A stretch of 64,000 nt of DNA from Mesorhizobium sp. 65-26 (lineage in GTDB: Bacteria; Pseudomonadota; Alphaproteobacteria; Rhizobiales; Rhizobiaceae), in the NCBI GenBank assembly GCA_001899205.1, contig MKVL01000030.1, forward strand, positions 62,001-126,000, written 5' to 3'. Below the pieces are notes generated by a model that made no database searches, was not told where the DNA came from, and saw only the letters and a program-made list of their open reading frames with translations. The first letter of the stretch is position 1; the number at the start of each line of letters is the position of its first letter. Positions 14,983-37,272 of this stretch are shown here, piece after piece. A program made the position numbers and the translations under genes.

Positions 14983-15909
14983 TCAGGGCTTGGCTGGCGA
15001 CTTCTGCCTCGCGGCAGACGAGCCGTCATAGAGCGCCTCCAGAAAGGCCTGCACCAGTGAGCTGTGGGCATCTGTCTTGCGATAGGCGACGCGGTGGACC
15101 GAGCTGAACGCATAGGCCCTCGGCCGGATGGCACGCATCTCGTCCCTCATCACCCAGGGGTCGGCGAAGTGACAAGGCAGGAAGCCGATGAAATGGCCCG
15201 ACAGGATCAGCATCAACTGCGCTTCCATGTGGACGACCGAGGCGCTCGCGCGCGGATGGCCGACGAGATAGAGATCGTCGAAATGCCGATAGCTGCGGAC
15301 GGAGAAGCGCGCGGCATCGATGGCCGCCTTGTCGATCCTTGAATCGGGCACGGCAAACAGCGGATGGCGCTGTCCGCAATAGAGAAGATGCGGCTCGCCG
15401 CAATAGTCGCGATAGATGACGCCAGGCGCCTTCTGCGACAACGGCCCTATGACGATGTCGCGGCCGCCGTCGGCAACCTGCTGCTCGAGTTCCGACGGCG
15501 TGCCGACCGACAGGTCTATGAACACGTCCGAATCCGGCCCCATGAAGCGGCCGAGCGCGTGCTGGATGCCCAGGTCGTCGCTTGTGAATACCCCGTCCGA
15601 CGTGCCGATCCTCAGCCGACCCGACAGGCTGCCGCTTGCCGCGCTGATGCGATGCCCGAAATCGTCGAGGTCGCGAAACAGCTTCTGGGCCGCGTCATAG
15701 GTCGCCCGGCCGACCTCGGTGAGGCGGAACTGCTTGCGGCCGCGGTGACAGAGCTGCGCGCCGATGCGCTTCTCCAGTTCGGCAAGATGCGTGCTGAGCG
15801 TCGGCTGCGACAGGTTCAACGTGATCTGCGCGGCGGCGAACCCGCCGCAATCGGCCAACGCCACGAAAACCCGCAACAACCGGATATCGATGTTGTCCAG
15901 CCGACGCAT
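14983..15909 (-). CDS. LysR-family regulator of the divergent guanidino/creatininase operon (predicted)
   Basis: The 308-residue protein has a LysR winged helix at the N-terminus (IDIRLLRVFVALADCGGFAA, then LNLSQPTLSTHLAELEKRIG) and a periplasmic-binding-fold effector domain from about residue 95. ATG 15909 follows AGGGGA, so the longer frame is rejected. It is transcribed away from the seven-gene operon starting at 16058, and a near-perfect 22-bp palindrome lies in the 148-base gap, the usual arrangement for a LysR activator. Effector identity is inferred only: probably the imported substrate or a breakdown product. Confidence 0.88.
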   Translation of the reverse strand: MRRLDNIDIRLLRVFVALADCGGFAAAQITLNLSQPTLSTHLAELEKRIGAQLCHRGRKQFRLTEVGRATYDAAQKLFRDLDDFGHRISAASGSLSGRLRIGTSDGVFTSDDLGIQHALGRFMGPDSDVFIDLSVGTPSELEQQVADGGRDIVIGPLSQKAPGVIYRDYCGEPHLLYCGQRHPLFAVPDSRIDKAAIDAARFSVRSYRHFDDLYLVGHPRASASVVHMEAQLMLILSGHFIGFLPCHFADPWVMRDEMRAIRPRAYAFSSVHRVAYRKTDAHSSLVQAFLEALYDGSSAARQKSPAKP

Positions 15910-15960
15910 GTTTTTTCCCCTGCCGGCGCATTCGCCTCGGAGACGCTCCGACGGCGGCAA

Positions 15961-15982
15961 CACATCGACATTATTCGATGTG
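15961..15982. promoter_or_regulatory. Inverted repeat, candidate LysR operator
   Basis: Arms CACATCGA and TCGATGTG are perfect 8-bp complements separated by CATTAT. The site is in the gap between the divergent LysR gene (15909) and the ABC substrate-binding gene (16058). Position and symmetry fit a LysR recognition site; binding is inferred. Confidence 0.55.
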
Positions 15983-16057
15983 TGGTTCTAAATAAACTCA
16001 TTTACACCAATGTTGAAAGCCGCGACGTTGCGTCAAACAAAACGTTGGGGAACAATC

Positions 16058-17050
16058 ATGAAATCAACCTTGGCCCTCGCCTTGTCCGCCGCGCTCGTGC
16101 TCGCCAGCGGGCAGTCCGCCTTCAGCGCCGACCAGATCCGCATCCTCGCGCCGACCTGGCTCGGCTTTGCCCCTGTCCACATTGCCTCCGATCTTGGCTG
16201 CTTCGCCAAGAAGGATCTCGACGTCTCCATCAAGTTCGAGGACGACCTGACCAACGTCATGGCGGCCATGGCGCGCGGCGACATCGAGCTGCAGATGCGT
16301 TCCGTGGGTGAATATCAGGGCCGTCCGCGCGATGCCTCGACGCCGGGCCTCATCATCGGCACCATCGACGAATCCGTCGGCGGTGACGGCGTCATCACCG
16401 ACGACAACATCAAGTCGGTCGCCGACCTCAATGGCAAGGTGGTCGCGGCCGAGCCCAACATCCCTGCCCGCCTGCTGCTGCAGATGGAGCTGAAGCAGGC
16501 CGGCCTGTCGCTGAAGGACCTGCAGATCAAGGACATCGCGTCGGCCGATACGGGCGCCGTTTTCGTCGATTCCTCGATCGCCGCGATCGCGACCTACGAG
16601 CCCTTCATGTCACAAGCGATCAAGGCGTCGACCCGACCCGGCGCGCGCATGCTGATCTCGTCCAAGGACCATCGCGGCATCATCATCGACGCGATCATCG
16701 CCCGAAACGACGACTTCAAGGCAAATCCGGACAAGTACACAAGGTTTCTCGGCTGCATCTACGAGGCCGTCGATTTCATCAAGGCCGAGCCGGACAAGTT
16801 CGCCGACATGGCGTCCAAGCATTTCGGCCTGACGCCTGAAGAGGTGAAGGACATCGTCAACGGCTCCCTCTCCTACACCACGCTTGCCGAGTCGCTCGCC
16901 TATATGGGCAAGGCCGGCGAGAAGGGCACGCTTCACGGCATCTTCGACACCGTCATGGAACTGAACCTGGAAAACGGGGCGGCCGACAACAAGCTGGTCG
17001 CGGCCGACCAGATCGACAATTCGGCGATCAACAAGGTGCCGGCGAAATAG
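16058..17050 (+). CDS. NitT/TauT-type ABC transporter substrate-binding protein
   Basis: The 330-residue protein has a Sec signal peptide (STLALALSAALVLASGQSAFS, cleavage near residue 23) and the NMT1/SsuA-like fold: TWLGFAPVHIASDLGCFAKKDLDV at about 33-56 and MAAMARGDIEL near 70. It captures the substrate in the periplasm for the permease and ATPase encoded directly downstream. Relatives bind taurine, sulfonates, nitrate, pyrimidines or small ureido compounds; the ligand here is not evident, but the downstream creatininase and ureohydrolase point to a guanidino compound. GGGGA precedes the ATG. Confidence 0.88.
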   Translation: MKSTLALALSAALVLASGQSAFSADQIRILAPTWLGFAPVHIASDLGCFAKKDLDVSIKFEDDLTNVMAAMARGDIELQMRSVGEYQGRPRDASTPGLIIGTIDESVGGDGVITDDNIKSVADLNGKVVAAEPNIPARLLLQMELKQAGLSLKDLQIKDIASADTGAVFVDSSIAAIATYEPFMSQAIKASTRPGARMLISSKDHRGIIIDAIIARNDDFKANPDKYTRFLGCIYEAVDFIKAEPDKFADMASKHFGLTPEEVKDIVNGSLSYTTLAESLAYMGKAGEKGTLHGIFDTVMELNLENGAADNKLVAADQIDNSAINKVPAK

Positions 17051-17148
17051 CGCCTCGCGCCAGCGCGTCGACCCTCAACGAGATCCAGTTCAGCGAGCAG
17101 GGCCGCCCGCGCGGCGGCCCGTGTTCTGATCATCCGGGAATAGCCTCC

Positions 17149-17931
17149 TTGTTCAGCAATCTGTTCGTCTTTCGTGGCCGAGCCTCGCCGATGGTGGAAC
17201 TTGCCGTCGGCGTCATCGCCGCCGCGCTGGTTGTCGCGGCCTGGGAAGGGGCCGCGCGCTCAGGGATGATCGCGCCGCAGTTCCTGCCGTCGCCCAGCCG
17301 AGTCCTTACCGCCCTGTGGACGATGCTGACCCAGCAGAACCTGATCTGGCATGTGGCGGTATCGACGGCGCGCGTGTGGGTCGCCTTCCTGCTTGCGGCG
17401 GCCTTGGCGATCCCGATCGGCATCGTCATGAGCAGCTATCGCATCGTGGGCGCCGCCCTGGAGCCGATGATCGATTTCATCCGCTACCTGCCGGTGCCCG
17501 CGCTTGTGCCGCTGTCGATCATCTGGTTCGGCGTCGGCGAGGAAACCAAGGTCTTCCTGCTGTGGCTGGGCACGTTCTTCCAGCTCGTGCTGCTGGTCGC
17601 CGACGACATGCGTCGCGTCCCGCAGGAGTTCGTCGAGGTTGCCCGCACCGTCGGCGCCAATTCGCGGCAAGTGATGACGGACGTTGCCCTGCGCTCGATG
17701 GGACCGACGCTGATCGACAATCTGCGGATCACGCTCGGCTGGTGCTGGACCTACCTGATCATCGCCGAGATCGTCGCCGCCGATTCCGGCATCGGCTACG
17801 TGATCTGGACGGCGCGACGCTTCGTCAAGACGCCGGAGGTCATGGCCGGCGTCGTCGTCATCGGGCTGATCGGCCTCGTCACCGACCAGTTGCTGCGCCT
17901 GCTGCACCGCAGGCTGTTCCGCTACCTCTGA
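17149..17931 (+). CDS. ABC transporter permease, NitT/TauT type
   Basis: The 260-residue inner-membrane protein has about six membrane spans and the conserved cytoplasmic coupling loop EFVEVARTVGANSRQ (about residues 160-174), the EAA motif that docks with the ATPase. It should form a homodimeric channel. No ATG exists near the expected N-terminus; TTG at 17149 gives a normal length, while ATG at 17191 would remove 14 residues and leave the first span intact. The following ATPase gene starts 14 bases after the stop. Confidence 0.88.
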   Translation: MFSNLFVFRGRASPMVELAVGVIAAALVVAAWEGAARSGMIAPQFLPSPSRVLTALWTMLTQQNLIWHVAVSTARVWVAFLLAAALAIPIGIVMSSYRIVGAALEPMIDFIRYLPVPALVPLSIIWFGVGEETKVFLLWLGTFFQLVLLVADDMRRVPQEFVEVARTVGANSRQVMTDVALRSMGPTLIDNLRITLGWCWTYLIIAEIVAADSGIGYVIWTARRFVKTPEVMAGVVVIGLIGLVTDQLLRLLHRRLFRYL

Positions 17932-17944
17932 GGGCACGACGACG

Positions 17945-18715
17945 ATGAGCGCATACGTCCAGTTCGCCGACACGGCGAAATCCTTCGGCCCGATCGAGGT
18001 CGTGCGGAAGACCAGCCTCGGCCTCGACCGCAATTCGTTGGTCGTTTTCCTCGGCCCGTCGGGCTGCGGCAAGACCACCTTGATGCGCATGGTCGGCGGG
18101 CTTGACCAGCCGAGCACCGGTTCCATCCTGCTCGGCGGCGAGAAGGTCGTAAGGCCCGACCGCCGGCGCGGCATGGTGTTTCAGTCCTATTCGTCGTTCC
18201 CATGGCTGACCGTCGAACGCAACATCGCCTTCGGCATGCGCTATCGCAACGACATCACGGCGGCCGAGAAGGCAGAGCGCACGCGCCATTACCTGGAGCT
18301 GTTCGGCCTCGCCGACTTCGCCGGGTCCTTCCCGAACCGCATCTCGGGCGGCATGCGCCAGCGCGTCGCCATAGCGCGCACGCTGGCGGCCGGCTCCGAC
18401 GTGCTTCTGATGGACGAGCCGTTCGGAGCGCTCGATGCGCTGACGCGCGAACGCCTGCAGGTCGAACTGCGCCAGATCCAGATCCGCGAGGAAAAGACCA
18501 TCATCTTCGTCACCCACGATGTCGAGGAAGCGGTGTTCCTGGCCGACAGGATCGTCCTGTTCTCGCGCCGGCCGGCCACCGTTGTGGCCGACATAGACGT
18601 CGCGGCGGAACTCGGCCCGCAACGACCACTGGAAATTCGCGAAACGCAGAAATTCTTCGAGCTGCGCAACCGCGTCCTGCATCTGATCCGCCACGAAACC
18701 GGAGCGGTGGTATGA
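17945..18715 (+). CDS. ABC transporter ATP-binding protein, NitT/TauT type
   Basis: This 256-residue ATPase powers the importer. Walker A is GPSGCGKTT (37-45), the Q-loop is GMVFQSYSSFPWLTV, the signature is ISGGMRQRVAIARTL, Walker B is VLLMDEPFGALD and the switch histidine lies in FVTHDVEEAVFLAD. All catalytic residues are intact. Its stop overlaps the start of the first SDR gene in an ATGA arrangement, which indicates translational coupling between transport and catabolism. Confidence 0.93.
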   Translation: MSAYVQFADTAKSFGPIEVVRKTSLGLDRNSLVVFLGPSGCGKTTLMRMVGGLDQPSTGSILLGGEKVVRPDRRRGMVFQSYSSFPWLTVERNIAFGMRYRNDITAAEKAERTRHYLELFGLADFAGSFPNRISGGMRQRVAIARTLAAGSDVLLMDEPFGALDALTRERLQVELRQIQIREEKTIIFVTHDVEEAVFLADRIVLFSRRPATVVADIDVAAELGPQRPLEIRETQKFFELRNRVLHLIRHETGAVV

Positions 18716-19467
18716 GCCCGTCCCTCGCCGGCAAGGCCGTCGTGATCACCGGGTCGAGCCGCGGCATCGGCCTCGGCATCGCGCGCCGCTTCGCCGAAGC
18801 AGGCGCGACGCTGCACCTGATTGCCAACGATCCCGCCGTCCACGAACGGGCGCGCGAGCTCGGCGCGACGAGCGCCGAGGCCGACATCGCCGATCGCGAG
18901 GCGGTCACGCGGGCGCTGGCTCCCCTCGCCCGCATCGACGTCCTTATCAACAATGCCGGGCTCGAGCTGATGACACCGGTCGACGACGCCGGCGACGACA
19001 ACGAGGCCGCCTTCCGGCGCATCGTCGAGATCAACGTCGTCGGTACCGCGCTGGTGACCGCGCGCGCCCTGCCGCGCATGCCGGCCGGCGCCTCGATCGT
19101 GAACACCGCCTCGATCTGGGGGCGCGTCGCCGAGGCTAGGTTCGGCGCCTATGTCGCCTCCAAGCACGCCATTATCGGGCTGACCAAGACTTGGGCCAGG
19201 GAGCTCGGCCCCAGGAGCATTCGCGTCAACGCAGTCTGCCCCGGCTGGGTGCGCACCGAAGCCTCGATGCGCTCGCTCGGCCGCATGGCCGAGCACGACG
19301 GCCGCGGCGAGGCCGAGCTGCTGGAGGGAATTGTGGCCGGGCAGGCCCTGCCTGGCCTGATGGAGCCGGACGATGTTGCCGGCACCTATCTCTTCCTGGC
19401 CTCGGATCTCGCCCGCAACATCACCGGGCAATCGCTTGGCGTCGACAGGGGGGAAGTGCCTTGGTAG
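18712..19467 (+). CDS. SDR-family NAD(P)-dependent oxidoreductase, first of two
   Basis: The 251-residue protein is a classical short-chain dehydrogenase: TGSSRGIG cofactor motif (13-20), LINNAGLE, catalytic Ser in NTASIWG and YxxxK in YVASKHAII, with the usual ITGQSLGVDRG end. It oxidises or reduces an alcohol/ketone; the substrate is unknown. The ATG overlaps the ATPase stop (ATGA), with GGAG upstream. Placement inside the operon suggests that it works on the imported compound or an intermediate. Confidence 0.9.
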   Translation: MSPSLAGKAVVITGSSRGIGLGIARRFAEAGATLHLIANDPAVHERARELGATSAEADIADREAVTRALAPLARIDVLINNAGLELMTPVDDAGDDNEAAFRRIVEINVVGTALVTARALPRMPAGASIVNTASIWGRVAEARFGAYVASKHAIIGLTKTWARELGPRSIRVNAVCPGWVRTEASMRSLGRMAEHDGRGEAELLEGIVAGQALPGLMEPDDVAGTYLFLASDLARNITGQSLGVDRGEVPW

Positions 19468-20168
19468 GTCCATTGAACGGAAAGCGGGCGCTGGTGACGG
19501 GCGCCGCCAGCGGCATCGGCCGGGCTACGGCCCAGGCCCTGCTCGAGGCCGGTGCCGTGGTAGTCGGGCTAGATCTTATAGCAGCCGAGGGTGACATCCC
19601 CATCCTTGCCTGCGATCTGGCGCGCGAAGCCGACATCGTTCGCGCCGTGGCGGAGGCTGCCCGTCGCCTCGGTGGCTACGACATACTGGTCAACAATGCC
19701 GGCATCCTCCAGGAGGCGCCGCTGGAGCGGATTTCGGCCGAGCACGTGGACCGCATGTTCACGGTCAACGTGCGTGGCGCGGTCCTTGTCGCGCGAGAGG
19801 CATTGCCCCACCTCGCCGATGGCGGCCGCATCGTCAACATCGCCTCGGAACTCGCCTATCTCGGTCGCGCCGAGGCTTCCGTCTACTGCGCCACCAAGGC
19901 CGCCCTGCTCGGCCTGACGCGCTCCTGGGCGCGGGAGCTGGCGCCGCGCATCCTGGTCAACGCCGTTGCGCCGGGACCGACCGACACGCCTTTGCTGGGC
20001 TTCGAGGCGCTGACCGAGGGGCAGCAGGCCCAGGAGACCATGCACCCCCTGCGCCGCATCGGCCGACCGGAGGAAATCGCCGCGGCGGTGGTGTTCCTCG
20101 CTGGCCCCGGCGCGACATTCTTCACCGGACAATGCCTCGGCGCCAATGGCGGCGCGGCAATGCTTTGA
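19461..20168 (+). CDS. SDR-family NAD(P)-dependent oxidoreductase, second of two
   Basis: The 235-residue protein has TGAASGIG (13-20), LVNNAGILQE, Ser in NIASELAYLG and YxxxK in YCATKAALLG. It is clearly different from the first SDR, so this is not a recent duplication. There is no ATG at the right place. TTG at 19461 is supported by a strong AGGGGGGAA just upstream and overlaps the end of the preceding SDR by seven bases, again implying coupled translation. A two-step oxidation by the pair is possible but inferred. Confidence 0.88.
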   Translation: MVGPLNGKRALVTGAASGIGRATAQALLEAGAVVVGLDLIAAEGDIPILACDLAREADIVRAVAEAARRLGGYDILVNNAGILQEAPLERISAEHVDRMFTVNVRGAVLVAREALPHLADGGRIVNIASELAYLGRAEASVYCATKAALLGLTRSWARELAPRILVNAVAPGPTDTPLLGFEALTEGQQAQETMHPLRRIGRPEEIAAAVVFLAGPGATFFTGQCLGANGGAAML

Positions 20169-20180
20169 GATGGAAAGATC

Positions 20181-20951
20181 ATGACAGACAGCGTTTTCCT
20201 GGCGGAACTGCCCTGGCCCGAGGCCGAAAGACGGATAGCGGCCGGCGCGCCGGTGTTCCTGCCACTCGGGTCCACCGAGCAACACGGCCATCACATGGCG
20301 ATGAATGTGGACGTCATCCTTCCGACCGCGATCGCGGCCAGCGTGGCGACCAAAGTCGGCGGTCTCGTCGCGCCGACCATCGCCTACGGCAACCGCTCGC
20401 AGCCCCGAACCGGCGGTGGCCCCGCCTTCCCGGGCACAATCAACATCACCGCGCATACGTTCTCGCTTCTTGTGAAGGACATCATCTGCGACCTCTATCG
20501 GCAGAAGGTGCGCAGGATCGTCGTGCTCAACGGCCACTACGAGAACATCGGACCGTCCATCGAGGGCGTGGAGCTGGCGCTCGACGCGATCGGCCGTGAG
20601 CGCGCCGCCGACCTGACCATCCTGCGCATGGACCATTGGGAGATGGTTCGCCCTGAAACCCTGGCGAAGGTGTTTCCCGACGGCTACCCCGGCATCGAAC
20701 TGGAGCATGCGAGCGTGATCGAGACCTCGATGATGCTGGCGCTGCGCCCTGAATTCGTCGATCTCGACAAGGCGCTGCATGACGGGCCTGCTCGTTTCAA
20801 GCCCTATGACCGCTACCCGCGGCCGGCCGAAGAGGTGCCGCCCTCCGGCGTGCTGTCGCTGACCGAAGGTTCTTCGGCGGAGAAGGGCCGCTGGCTGCTC
20901 AGCGACTGCGAGGAGCGGATCGCCGAGATCGTCAAACAGGAATTCCTCTGA
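20181..20951 (+). CDS. Creatininase-family amidohydrolase (probable creatinine amidohydrolase)
   Basis: The 256-residue protein is a close match, as far as I recall it, to Pseudomonas putida creatininase in length and sequence: GSTEQHGHHMAMNVDVILPTA, GGPAFPGT, RRIVVLNGHYEN and IETSMMLALRPEFVDLD. Metal ligands fall one residue before those of the Pseudomonas enzyme: Glu33, His35, Asp44, His119, Glu121. The family opens cyclic amides such as creatinine to creatine, but also includes other amidohydrolases, so substrate identity is inferred. Only one base separates its stop from the ureohydrolase start. Confidence 0.87.
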   Translation: MTDSVFLAELPWPEAERRIAAGAPVFLPLGSTEQHGHHMAMNVDVILPTAIAASVATKVGGLVAPTIAYGNRSQPRTGGGPAFPGTINITAHTFSLLVKDIICDLYRQKVRRIVVLNGHYENIGPSIEGVELALDAIGRERAADLTILRMDHWEMVRPETLAKVFPDGYPGIELEHASVIETSMMLALRPEFVDLDKALHDGPARFKPYDRYPRPAEEVPPSGVLSLTEGSSAEKGRWLLSDCEERIAEIVKQEFL

Positions 20952-20952
20952 A

Positions 20953-21930
20953 ATGGCGCAGAACATGCAAAACAGCTTCTTCCAACCCGTCGATGCCGCC
21001 GAGGTGCCGCGTTTTGCCGGGCATTCGACATTCATGCGGCTGCCGGCCGTGCCGAGCGCCAAAGGCCTCGACATCGCGCTCGTCGGCATTCCGTGGGACG
21101 GCGGCACCACCAACCGCGCCGGCGCGCGCCACGGCCCCCGCGAAATCCGCAATCAGTCGAGCCTGATGCGACGTGCGCATCACGTCTCCGGGACGGAGCC
21201 CTTCAGCATCGCCAATGTCGCCGATGTCGGCGACCTTTCGGTCAATCCCATCAACCTGCTCGACGGACTGAAGCGCATCGAGGACGGCATGGCGGCGATC
21301 GTCGCCGACGGCGCGCTGCCGCTGGCCGCCGGCGGCGACCATCTGACGACGCTGCCCGTGCTGCGCGCGGTGGCCCGCAAGGCGCCTGTCGGCATGATCC
21401 ATTTCGATGCGCATTCGGACACCAACGACCGCTATTTCGGCGACAATCCCTACACGCACGGCACGCCCTTTCGCCGCGCCATCGAGGAAGGGTTGCTCGA
21501 CCCCAGGCGGGTTGTGCAGATCGGCATTCGCGGCTCGGTCTATGAACCGGGCGAGCACGCCTGGGCCGTCGCCCAGGGAATCCGCATCATATACATGGAA
21601 GAGTTCGTCAGGCGCGGCGCAACGGCCGTCATGCAGGAGGCACGCGCCCTCGTTGGCGACAACCCAACCTACGTGACCTTCGACATCGACTGCATCGACC
21701 CGTCGATGGCGCCGGGCACGGGCACGCCCGAACTCGGCGGGTTCACCACGCGAGAGGCGCAGGAGATGGTGCGCCTGCTCGACGGGTTGAATTTCGCCGG
21801 AGCCGACGTGGTCGAGGTCGCGCCGCCCTTCGATCTCGGCGGCATGACCGCGCTCGCGGGCGCGACGATGATGTTCGAATTGCTGTGTGTGATGGCGAAG
21901 TCCGTGGCCGACAGGAGAGCGCGCGGCTGA
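20953..21930 (+). CDS. Ureohydrolase (agmatinase-like) family protein
   Basis: The 325-residue protein belongs to the arginase/agmatinase superfamily, whose members hydrolyse guanidino groups to release urea. All Mn ligands are present: His130 in AAGGDHLTT, Asp152, His154 and Asp156 in HFDAHSDTND, and Asp244 and Asp246 in TFDIDCIDP; THGTPFRR (168-175) is typical of the agmatinase branch. The exact substrate (agmatine, guanidinobutyrate, guanidinoacetate, creatine-like) cannot be decided. As last gene of the operon after creatininase, it is a plausible step for removing urea from the ring-opened product. Confidence 0.88.
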   Translation: MAQNMQNSFFQPVDAAEVPRFAGHSTFMRLPAVPSAKGLDIALVGIPWDGGTTNRAGARHGPREIRNQSSLMRRAHHVSGTEPFSIANVADVGDLSVNPINLLDGLKRIEDGMAAIVADGALPLAAGGDHLTTLPVLRAVARKAPVGMIHFDAHSDTNDRYFGDNPYTHGTPFRRAIEEGLLDPRRVVQIGIRGSVYEPGEHAWAVAQGIRIIYMEEFVRRGATAVMQEARALVGDNPTYVTFDIDCIDPSMAPGTGTPELGGFTTREAQEMVRLLDGLNFAGADVVEVAPPFDLGGMTALAGATMMFELLCVMAKSVADRRARG

Positions 21931-37186: not shown

Positions 37187-37272
37187 GCGGACGTGGCGGA
37201 ACTGGTAGACGCAAGGGACTTAAAATCCCTCGATCGCTGATCGTACGGGTTCGATTCCCGTCGTCCGCACCA
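37187..37272 (+). tRNA. tRNA-Leu (anticodon UAA)
   Basis: The 86-base sequence folds as a class II tRNA: acceptor GCGGACG pairs with CGTCCGC, the D-arm contains GGCGGAACTGGTAGACGC, the anticodon stem is GGGA/TCCC with loop CTTAAAA giving anticodon TAA, a variable arm follows, and the T-arm GGGTTCGATTCCC is perfect. The CCA end is encoded. It lies 130 bases downstream of the low-GC DUF2235 gene. Confidence 0.96.

Follow-up and report, generated by a model that had tools for sequence, protein, structure and literature searches.

A LysR-linked operon of Mesorhizobium that joins two short-chain dehydrogenases and a creatininase homologue to a GpuA-type ureohydrolase: a candidate route for a guanidino compound, probably not creatinine

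Background

We describe here a gene cluster of Mesorhizobium sp. 65-26 that occupies positions 14983-21930 of a stretch of 64,000 nucleotides (contig MKVL01000030.1, positions 62,001 to 126,000; hereafter the window) and consists of seven co-directional genes, for an ABC importer, two short-chain dehydrogenases (SDR1 and SDR2), a creatininase-family amidohydrolase and a ureohydrolase, together with a divergent gene for a LysR-type regulator. A related described system is the classical degradation of creatinine, i.e. by creatininase, an M24-type creatinase and sarcosine oxidase, as encoded on plasmid MesoLj131a2 of Mesorhizobium sp. 131-2-1 (locus L192; the prefix L marks our locus numbers). 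Both have a creatininase-family enzyme, a LysR regulator, an ABC importer and a urea-forming logic, but the window operon has no creatinase, contains SDRs and a ureohydrolase, carries Ile and not Trp at position 174 of the creatininase homologue (P. putida numbering, used throughout) and has an importer of another type.

Other known systems resemble particular parts of the operon. GpuA, the 3-guanidinopropionase of P. aeruginosa, is 66% identical to the ureohydrolase and shares with it the residue at position 157 and a capping Arg; its gene context, presumably gpuPAR, differs from the present one with its ABC importer, SDRs and creatininase homologue. Operons for guanidine carboxylase and carboxyguanidine deiminase have an importer of the NMT1/SsuA type. 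Like such operons (CgdAB, DUF1989; mentioned in PMC11271267), some relatives of the window operon have DUF1989 proteins beside them (L151, L157 and L162), but the substrate-binding protein (SBP) in the window stays below the cut-off of the urea/guanidine importer model TIGR03427 and there is no carboxylase among the operon genes. Metformin hydrolase MetCaCb combines two unlike ureohydrolases; 11 of 57 relatives also have two such enzymes close to their creatininase, whereas the window has one, and that one is only weakly similar (81-88 bits). In the pathway of the diketo-inositol hydrolase IolN, a C-C hydrolase, dehydrogenases are likewise followed by a creatininase-family hydrolase; the window creatininase nevertheless falls outside IolN (78.7 bits, cut-off 245).

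No description of this operon arrangement was found in the open-access literature (most subscription journals lay outside the scope of the search); PMC6742649 and PMC8745165, in the passages concerned, mention creatininase and agmatinase separately. The parts belong to known families, and it is the conserved combination and an associated residue signature that are new. The reading that we prefer, and to which we give an even chance, is that the operon is inducible and serves the catabolism of a small guanidino compound, probably not creatinine, through import, oxidation, opening of a lactam and release of urea.

A creatininase homologue without Trp174

The creatininase homologue scores 321.2 bits against the creatininase model TIGR04448 (cut-off 235), and P. 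putida creatininase entries match it with 230-238 bits. It retains in alignment E34, H36, D45, H120, E122 and H178, the metal ligands and catalytic residues of the P. putida enzyme. At position 174 it has Ile, in the place of a Trp that in P. putida lies over the substrate as a lid; the open-access literature yielded nothing on the role of Trp174.

Position 174 was compared in a set of 81 creatininases including that of the window, reduced to 79 by dropping two near-identical sequences and drawn from three sources: the ureohydrolase-seeded search (see below), every creatininase match in the samples of the order, class and phylum, and 8 of the 20 matches on plasmids. We called a creatininase SDR-linked when it lies within 3.2 kb of a homologue (at least 40% identity) of SDR1 or SDR2, and creatinase-linked when an adjoining protein is at least 60% identical to the creatinase of L172, which itself matches the solved creatinase 7yto with 796 bits. 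Trp174 is absent from all 57 SDR-linked sequences (38 Ile, 12 Thr, 5 Phe, 1 Tyr, 1 Met), is found in 20 of the 22 without SDR (the others, L170 and L175, have Leu) and is present in all nine that are creatinase-linked. The classical creatininase-creatinase sets on the Mesorhizobium plasmids L182 and L192, the latter with sarcosine oxidase as well, are both of the Trp type. Throughout the set the six metal and catalytic positions are intact, with the exception of L193 (Asn at 120). These alignments make the homologue seem retuned for a substrate other than creatinine.

In a FastTree phylogeny of 65 relatives, the window sequence and the P. putida enzyme, rooted at its midpoint and read for topology only, the SDR-linked sequences without Trp do not form one clade: L157/L167 and L162 stand apart from the main clade, and L162 is placed beside a Trp-type sequence. 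As judged from this scatter, the correlation between position 174 and SDR linkage does not wholly reflect one inheritance, although most of the sequences are related.

Two deviating types of creatininase neighbourhood were seen in the same set. The Leu174 creatininases without SDRs (L170:10185 and L175:8957) are followed by an isochorismatase-like hydrolase, 43-45% identical to that of L188, and perhaps represent a third functional class. On a plasmid of Terrarubrum flagellatum (L181:8001-11968) a Trp174 creatininase adjoins a cytosine deaminase, a nucleoside deaminase and an amidohydrolase, which suggests the N-methylhydantoin route of creatinine.

A ureohydrolase of the GpuA type

Among solved structures the ureohydrolase is nearest to P. 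aeruginosa GpuA (3nip, 477 bits), followed by GbuA (317 bits, 48% identity), proclavaminate amidinohydrolase (238 bits) and the agmatinases (at most 191 bits). It does exceed the cut-off of the agmatinase model TIGR01230 (193.1 bits, cut-off 174.3); despite this, the solved structures nearest to it are those of guanidino-acid hydrolases. The four ligand positions that were checked are intact (HDHD), and the equivalent of GpuA Tyr157, presumably a pocket residue, is conserved. Conserved as well, in the alignment with GpuA and GbuA, is the Arg that caps the active site. In GbuA this residue (R72) comes from the neighbouring subunit and could contact the substrate carboxylate, according to PMC9772407. 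A pocket of this type suggests a short guanidino acid as the substrate. The residues at creatininase position 174 and ureohydrolase position 157 covary (Ile with Tyr in 31 of 44 loci, Thr with Phe in 11), a covariation that follows phylogeny.

Conservation and variation of the operon

Linkage of the two hydrolases was followed in two ways. The ureohydrolase-seeded search gave 425 loci, 80 of which were kept. A sample of 397 genomes of the order contained a close creatininase (E <= 1e-60) in 27 and a close ureohydrolase (E <= 1e-100) in 97; according to their coordinates, the two lie within about 2.5 kb of each other in 17 of the 27 creatininase genomes; in an 18th, G310, part of a ureohydrolase gene is present at the end of a contig. 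Overall, a ureohydrolase adjoins 46 of the 57 SDR-linked creatininases, but 26 of these 46 had been found via the ureohydrolase and so could not fail. The recount among those found via the creatininase, with the window excluded, gives 20 of 31 (one of the 20, L183, is on the same contig as L057), so that the linkage, as read from gene neighbourhoods, is weakened yet well above chance. It spans several families. The recurrence of the gene order in relatives, proposed in the original prediction as a check, is thereby confirmed.

At least one SDR stands beside 57 of the 79 creatininases, and both stand beside 54. The surroundings are less constant: among the 57 SDR-linked loci the importer is of the window type in 34, and a LysR homologue (at least 45% identity) is nearby in 34. 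A different importer (38-50% identical) is found in L030, L033, L041, L042, L049, L057 and L074, and in L138 and L145 there is none between LysR and SDR1, with the four-gene core retained in all nine. Because the importer is thus swapped or missing elsewhere, the core of the system, as delimited by these comparisons, is SDR1-SDR2-creatininase-ureohydrolase, usually with LysR. On plasmid b of Rhizobium sp. CIAT894 the SDR unit is divergent from a creatininase-'agmatinase' unit, and the cluster also includes an HpcH-type aldolase and an aminotransferase-V protein.

Where the ureohydrolase does not adjoin an SDR-linked creatininase, other enzymes are found. In L157 the creatininase is followed by a DUF1989 protein and a protein of the DDAH/arginine-deiminase type; L162 has a DUF1989 protein. 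L186-L189 have an isochorismatase/biuret-hydrolase-like protein (profiled in L188; 55-59% identical homologues in the other three) and, in the two that were tested (L186 and L188), a lactonase-like protein; all these matches are below the equivalog cut-offs. A Rieske oxygenase occurs together with ethanolamine ammonia-lyase EutBC in L155 and with a pyridoxal-phosphate (PLP) decarboxylase in L166, and an FMN monooxygenase of the NtaA/DmoA type in L193. The partners in L185 were viewed as open frames only, and L167 is a contig of 3.8 kb that ends soon after the creatininase. In total, oxygenases accompany 11 of the 57 loci, namely six Rieske, four desaturase-type (L186-L189; one called by profile, three by 54-93% identity to it) and the one FMN enzyme. 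Guanidino or ureido groups are the targets of the families to which several of the replacing partners are assigned, and this supports a substrate of the guanidino type.

The second ureohydrolase in 11 of the 57 loci is about 35% related to the first. In one locus with tandem ureohydrolases (L142:7030-7875) these are followed by a SoxYZ-like carrier fusion (TIGR04557, above cut-off), a homologue of which is present in L152. In L153 (8880-10637) a Trp174-type creatininase immediately precedes a GpuA-type ureohydrolase, and both SDRs and a close creatinase are lacking; of all the loci, this one comes nearest to what a true creatinine route with a ureohydrolase as its last enzyme would look like.

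Loss of the operon in Mesorhizobium

At 17 Mesorhizobium loci a lone ureohydrolase gene occupies the same chromosomal site as the window operon, between the same neighbours on the CysE side and the hydrolase side, with the other operon genes gone. Upstream of the lone gene the creatininase 3' end has left remnants, most plainly in L003, L026 and L027, which indicate deletion and not original absence; for Mesorhizobium, insertion of the operon beside an ancestral lone ureohydrolase is rejected on the same ground. A tree of five flanking proteins from 26 loci (two with partial data), in which several inner branches have low support, mixes deleted and intact loci in two clades (e.g. the intact L018 with the deleted L027, 96% support). 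Because of this mixing several losses, or losses and regain by recombination, are needed to explain the flank tree. None of the 17 lone ureohydrolase genes contains a stop, and their median pairwise dN/dS is 0.095, compared with 0.079 in 11 operon copies, values that speak for purifying selection on the lone gene. The ureohydrolase is therefore useful without the operon, presumably on a guanidino acid from another source.

The search also provided homologues (76-93% identical) in loci without creatininase and SDRs (53 of the 80 kept), and the ureohydrolase was rejected as a marker of a fixed operon. Downstream of the lone gene, on the opposite strand, an FMN monooxygenase of the NtaA/DmoA type adjoins it in 11 Rhizobium/Rhizobiales loci (in the range L028-L047), ten of which also hold a small conserved gene; a twelfth copy, in L036, lies about 10 kb from the ureohydrolase. 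A 36% relative of this monooxygenase is present in the Salipiger SDR-creatininase cluster L193.

A probable LysR operator

Between the divergent promoters lies an inverted repeat (sequence ACACATCGACATTATTCGATGTGT). When up to two mismatches to its consensus ATCGA-N6-TCGAT are allowed, 30 of 35 divergent intergenic regions (LysR-SBP or LysR-SDR1) contain it, 15 of them exactly; in single-base shuffles of these regions the count averaged 1.24 and never exceeded 5. The 35 are not independent, many being related. The palindrome is missing from L051, L141, L144, L150 and L151, and is also present ahead of SDR1 in L138 and L145, where LysR and SDR1 have no importer between them. Its position and conservation make it a probable LysR operator. 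A guanidine riboswitch or other RNA element was considered and rejected, the sole Rfam match at gathering thresholds in the whole window being a tRNA at 37187.

Proposed pathway and its alternatives

We infer the order of the steps, the lactam intermediate, the substrate, the products and the control by LysR as follows. The ABC importer would bring in the substrate, and SDR1 and SDR2 would oxidise an alcohol or a cyclic hemiaminal; in the hemiaminal case this would give a cyclic guanidino lactam, a parallel being the sugar dehydrogenases that supply lactonases with lactones. The creatininase homologue would open the lactam to a guanidino acid, for which 3-guanidinopropionate or something close to it is the likeliest candidate, and the GpuA-type ureohydrolase would split this acid into urea and an amino acid, for example beta-alanine. 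Urea would be taken by a urease encoded elsewhere in the genome; a urease alpha subunit gene is present there, as are eight arginase-family and five creatininase-family genes. LysR would control the operon via the conserved palindrome, and in those relatives that have an oxygenase, this enzyme would install the hydroxyl first. The lactam-opening reading is the simplest one that uses all the enzymes. The original prediction had put forward the general idea that a cyclic guanidino compound is imported, oxidised and hydrolysed, and this is the best fit, supported by the conservation and the enzyme replacements; creatinine, which the prediction also named as a substrate, is not supported.

Several observations weigh against such a pathway. 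The ureohydrolase has been retained alone at 17 Mesorhizobium loci and is hence independent of it. Relatives lacking one of the hydrolases, which the original prediction had named as what would refute it, do in part exist: 11 of 57 SDR-creatininase loci are without an adjoining ureohydrolase (10 if the short contig L167 is left out), in L067 (6200-6260) SDR1-SDR2 run straight into the ureohydrolase with the creatininase missing, and creatininase and SDRs are both absent from 53 of the 80 ureohydrolase loci. EutBC (L155) and the PLP decarboxylase (L166) are not accounted for by a guanidino-acid end product, and EutBC, the lactonase-like protein and the HpcH-type aldolase that is joined to the CIAT894 cluster misfit a simple guanidino acid. 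Moreover, the window operon has no oxygenase, and the correlation between position 174 and SDR linkage is phylogenetically clustered.

Since each half occurs without the other, the operon may hold two independent functions, i.e. a ureohydrolase for 3-guanidinopropionate and an SDR-creatininase unit for another compound in which a guanidino group is not required. The retention of the ureohydrolase under constraint after the deletions fits this division, as do the loci without ureohydrolase (11 of 57, or 11 of 31 among those found via the creatininase) and the biuret-hydrolase-like, lactonase-like or EutBC partners elsewhere. Yet 20 of the 31 hold both hydrolases, in several families, CIAT894 has a creatininase-ureohydrolase pair apart from the SDR operon, and creatininase position 174 and ureohydrolase position 157 change together, though following phylogeny, so that we regard two functions as unlikely, if a serious contender. 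The conversion of creatinine via creatine into sarcosine and urea, in which the ureohydrolase would replace creatinase as originally predicted, we consider quite improbable. The creatininase homologue does pass the TIGR04448 equivalog cut-off with all metal ligands present, and in L153 this ureohydrolase accompanies a creatininase of the Trp174 type without SDRs. As had been predicted, no creatinase was found: M24-type genes exist elsewhere in the genome of the strain but none is close to creatinase (best match 26%, residues 119-405 of 414). Sarcosine oxidase, said to be absent too, is not, as three soxB genes above the TIGR01373 cut-off lie elsewhere in the genome, none of them in the operon. 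What speaks against creatinine is Ile174, with Trp in 0 of 57 SDR-linked homologues as against 9 of 9 creatinase-linked ones and in the plasmid sets L182 and L192, the GpuA-like ureohydrolase, and the lack of a role for the SDRs. In addition, PMC9772407 reports no hydrolysis of creatine or guanidinoacetate (10 mM) by human AGMAT, an enzyme that stands closer to GbuA (60% identity) than GpuA (45%).

The degradation of a streptidine-like guanidino-cyclitol, in which the SDRs would form ring ketones, the creatininase homologue would be an IolN-like C-C hydrolase and ureohydrolases would remove the guanidino groups, has very little to recommend it in our estimate. The creatininase family includes IolN, whose model is matched, a second ureohydrolase is present in 11 of 57 loci, and an HpcH aldolase (CIAT894) or EutBC (L155) accompanies the SDRs, but the IolN match is far inferior to that with the creatininase model (78.7 bits, cut-off 245, versus 321 bits, cut-off 235), and a pocket of the GpuA type points to a short guanidino acid. 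Going further than the guanidino-compound operon preferred here, one can envisage a widespread and undescribed pathway of soil- and plant-associated Proteobacteria that oxidises to a lactam, opens it and strips urea, with (in some) an oxygenase, then the SDR pair, a retuned creatininase and a modular guanidino-removing last step, by a GpuA-type ureohydrolase, DDAH/ADI-like plus DUF1989 proteins or an isochorismatase-like hydrolase. Its substrate would be a cyclic guanidino nutrient never recognised as such, for instance a six-membered lactam yielding 3-guanidinopropionate. This whole, the modular step included, we offer tentatively, as something that may well prove wrong.

If the reading preferred here is right, many 'creatininase' annotations in Alphaproteobacteria and some other Proteobacteria concern enzymes that act on something else, and one residue (Trp174 or not) together with SDR linkage would separate the two classes. 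It would also provide a metabolic source of substrate for GpuA-type enzymes and a new route for guanidine nitrogen that is testable with a handful of compounds.

Gene layout

Genes were called from open reading frames and then compared with Pfam and NCBIfam profiles (Table 1).

Table 1. Coordinates in the window of the operon genes, the regulator gene and the intergenic palindrome
Feature	Position	Strand	Profile or nearest relative	Remarks
Divergent LysR-type regulator	14983..15963	-	PF00126 + PF03466	likely ATG 15909
Inverted repeat ACACATCGA-N6-TCGATGTGT, probable LysR operator	15960..15983			between divergent promoters
ABC importer substrate-binding protein (SBP), NMT1/SsuA type	16010..17050	+	PF09084	likely ATG 16058
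ABC importer permease, TauC/SsuC type	17149..17931	+	PF00528	TTG start, in-frame ATG 17191
ABC importer ATPase	17945..18715	+	PF00005
SDR1, short-chain dehydrogenase	18712..19467	+	PF13561
SDR2, short-chain dehydrogenase	19461..20168	+	PF13561	TTG start overlaps SDR1 stop
Creatininase-family amidohydrolase	20181..20951	+	TIGR04448	Ile at P. putida Trp174 position
Ureohydrolase, GpuA (3-guanidinopropionase) type	20953..21930	+	nearest solved relative 3nip/GpuA

Among the best 25 of the 46 NCBIfam models matched by the LysR gene no cut-off is reached, the SBP matches TIGR01728 and TIGR03427 below their cut-offs (58.1 bits for the latter, cut-off 333.9), and the same holds for the permease with the TauC, SaoP and SsuC models. 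Both SDR sequences have intact TGxxxGIG, NNAG and Ser..YxxxK motifs. The open reading frames, the profiles, and the motif and ligand positions bear out that the seven genes are tightly spaced or overlapping and have intact active sites, with the coordinates first given. The SBP and permease genes are 98 bp apart, and because the gaps from the permease onward are only -7 to +13 bp, the genes from there on likely share one transcript.

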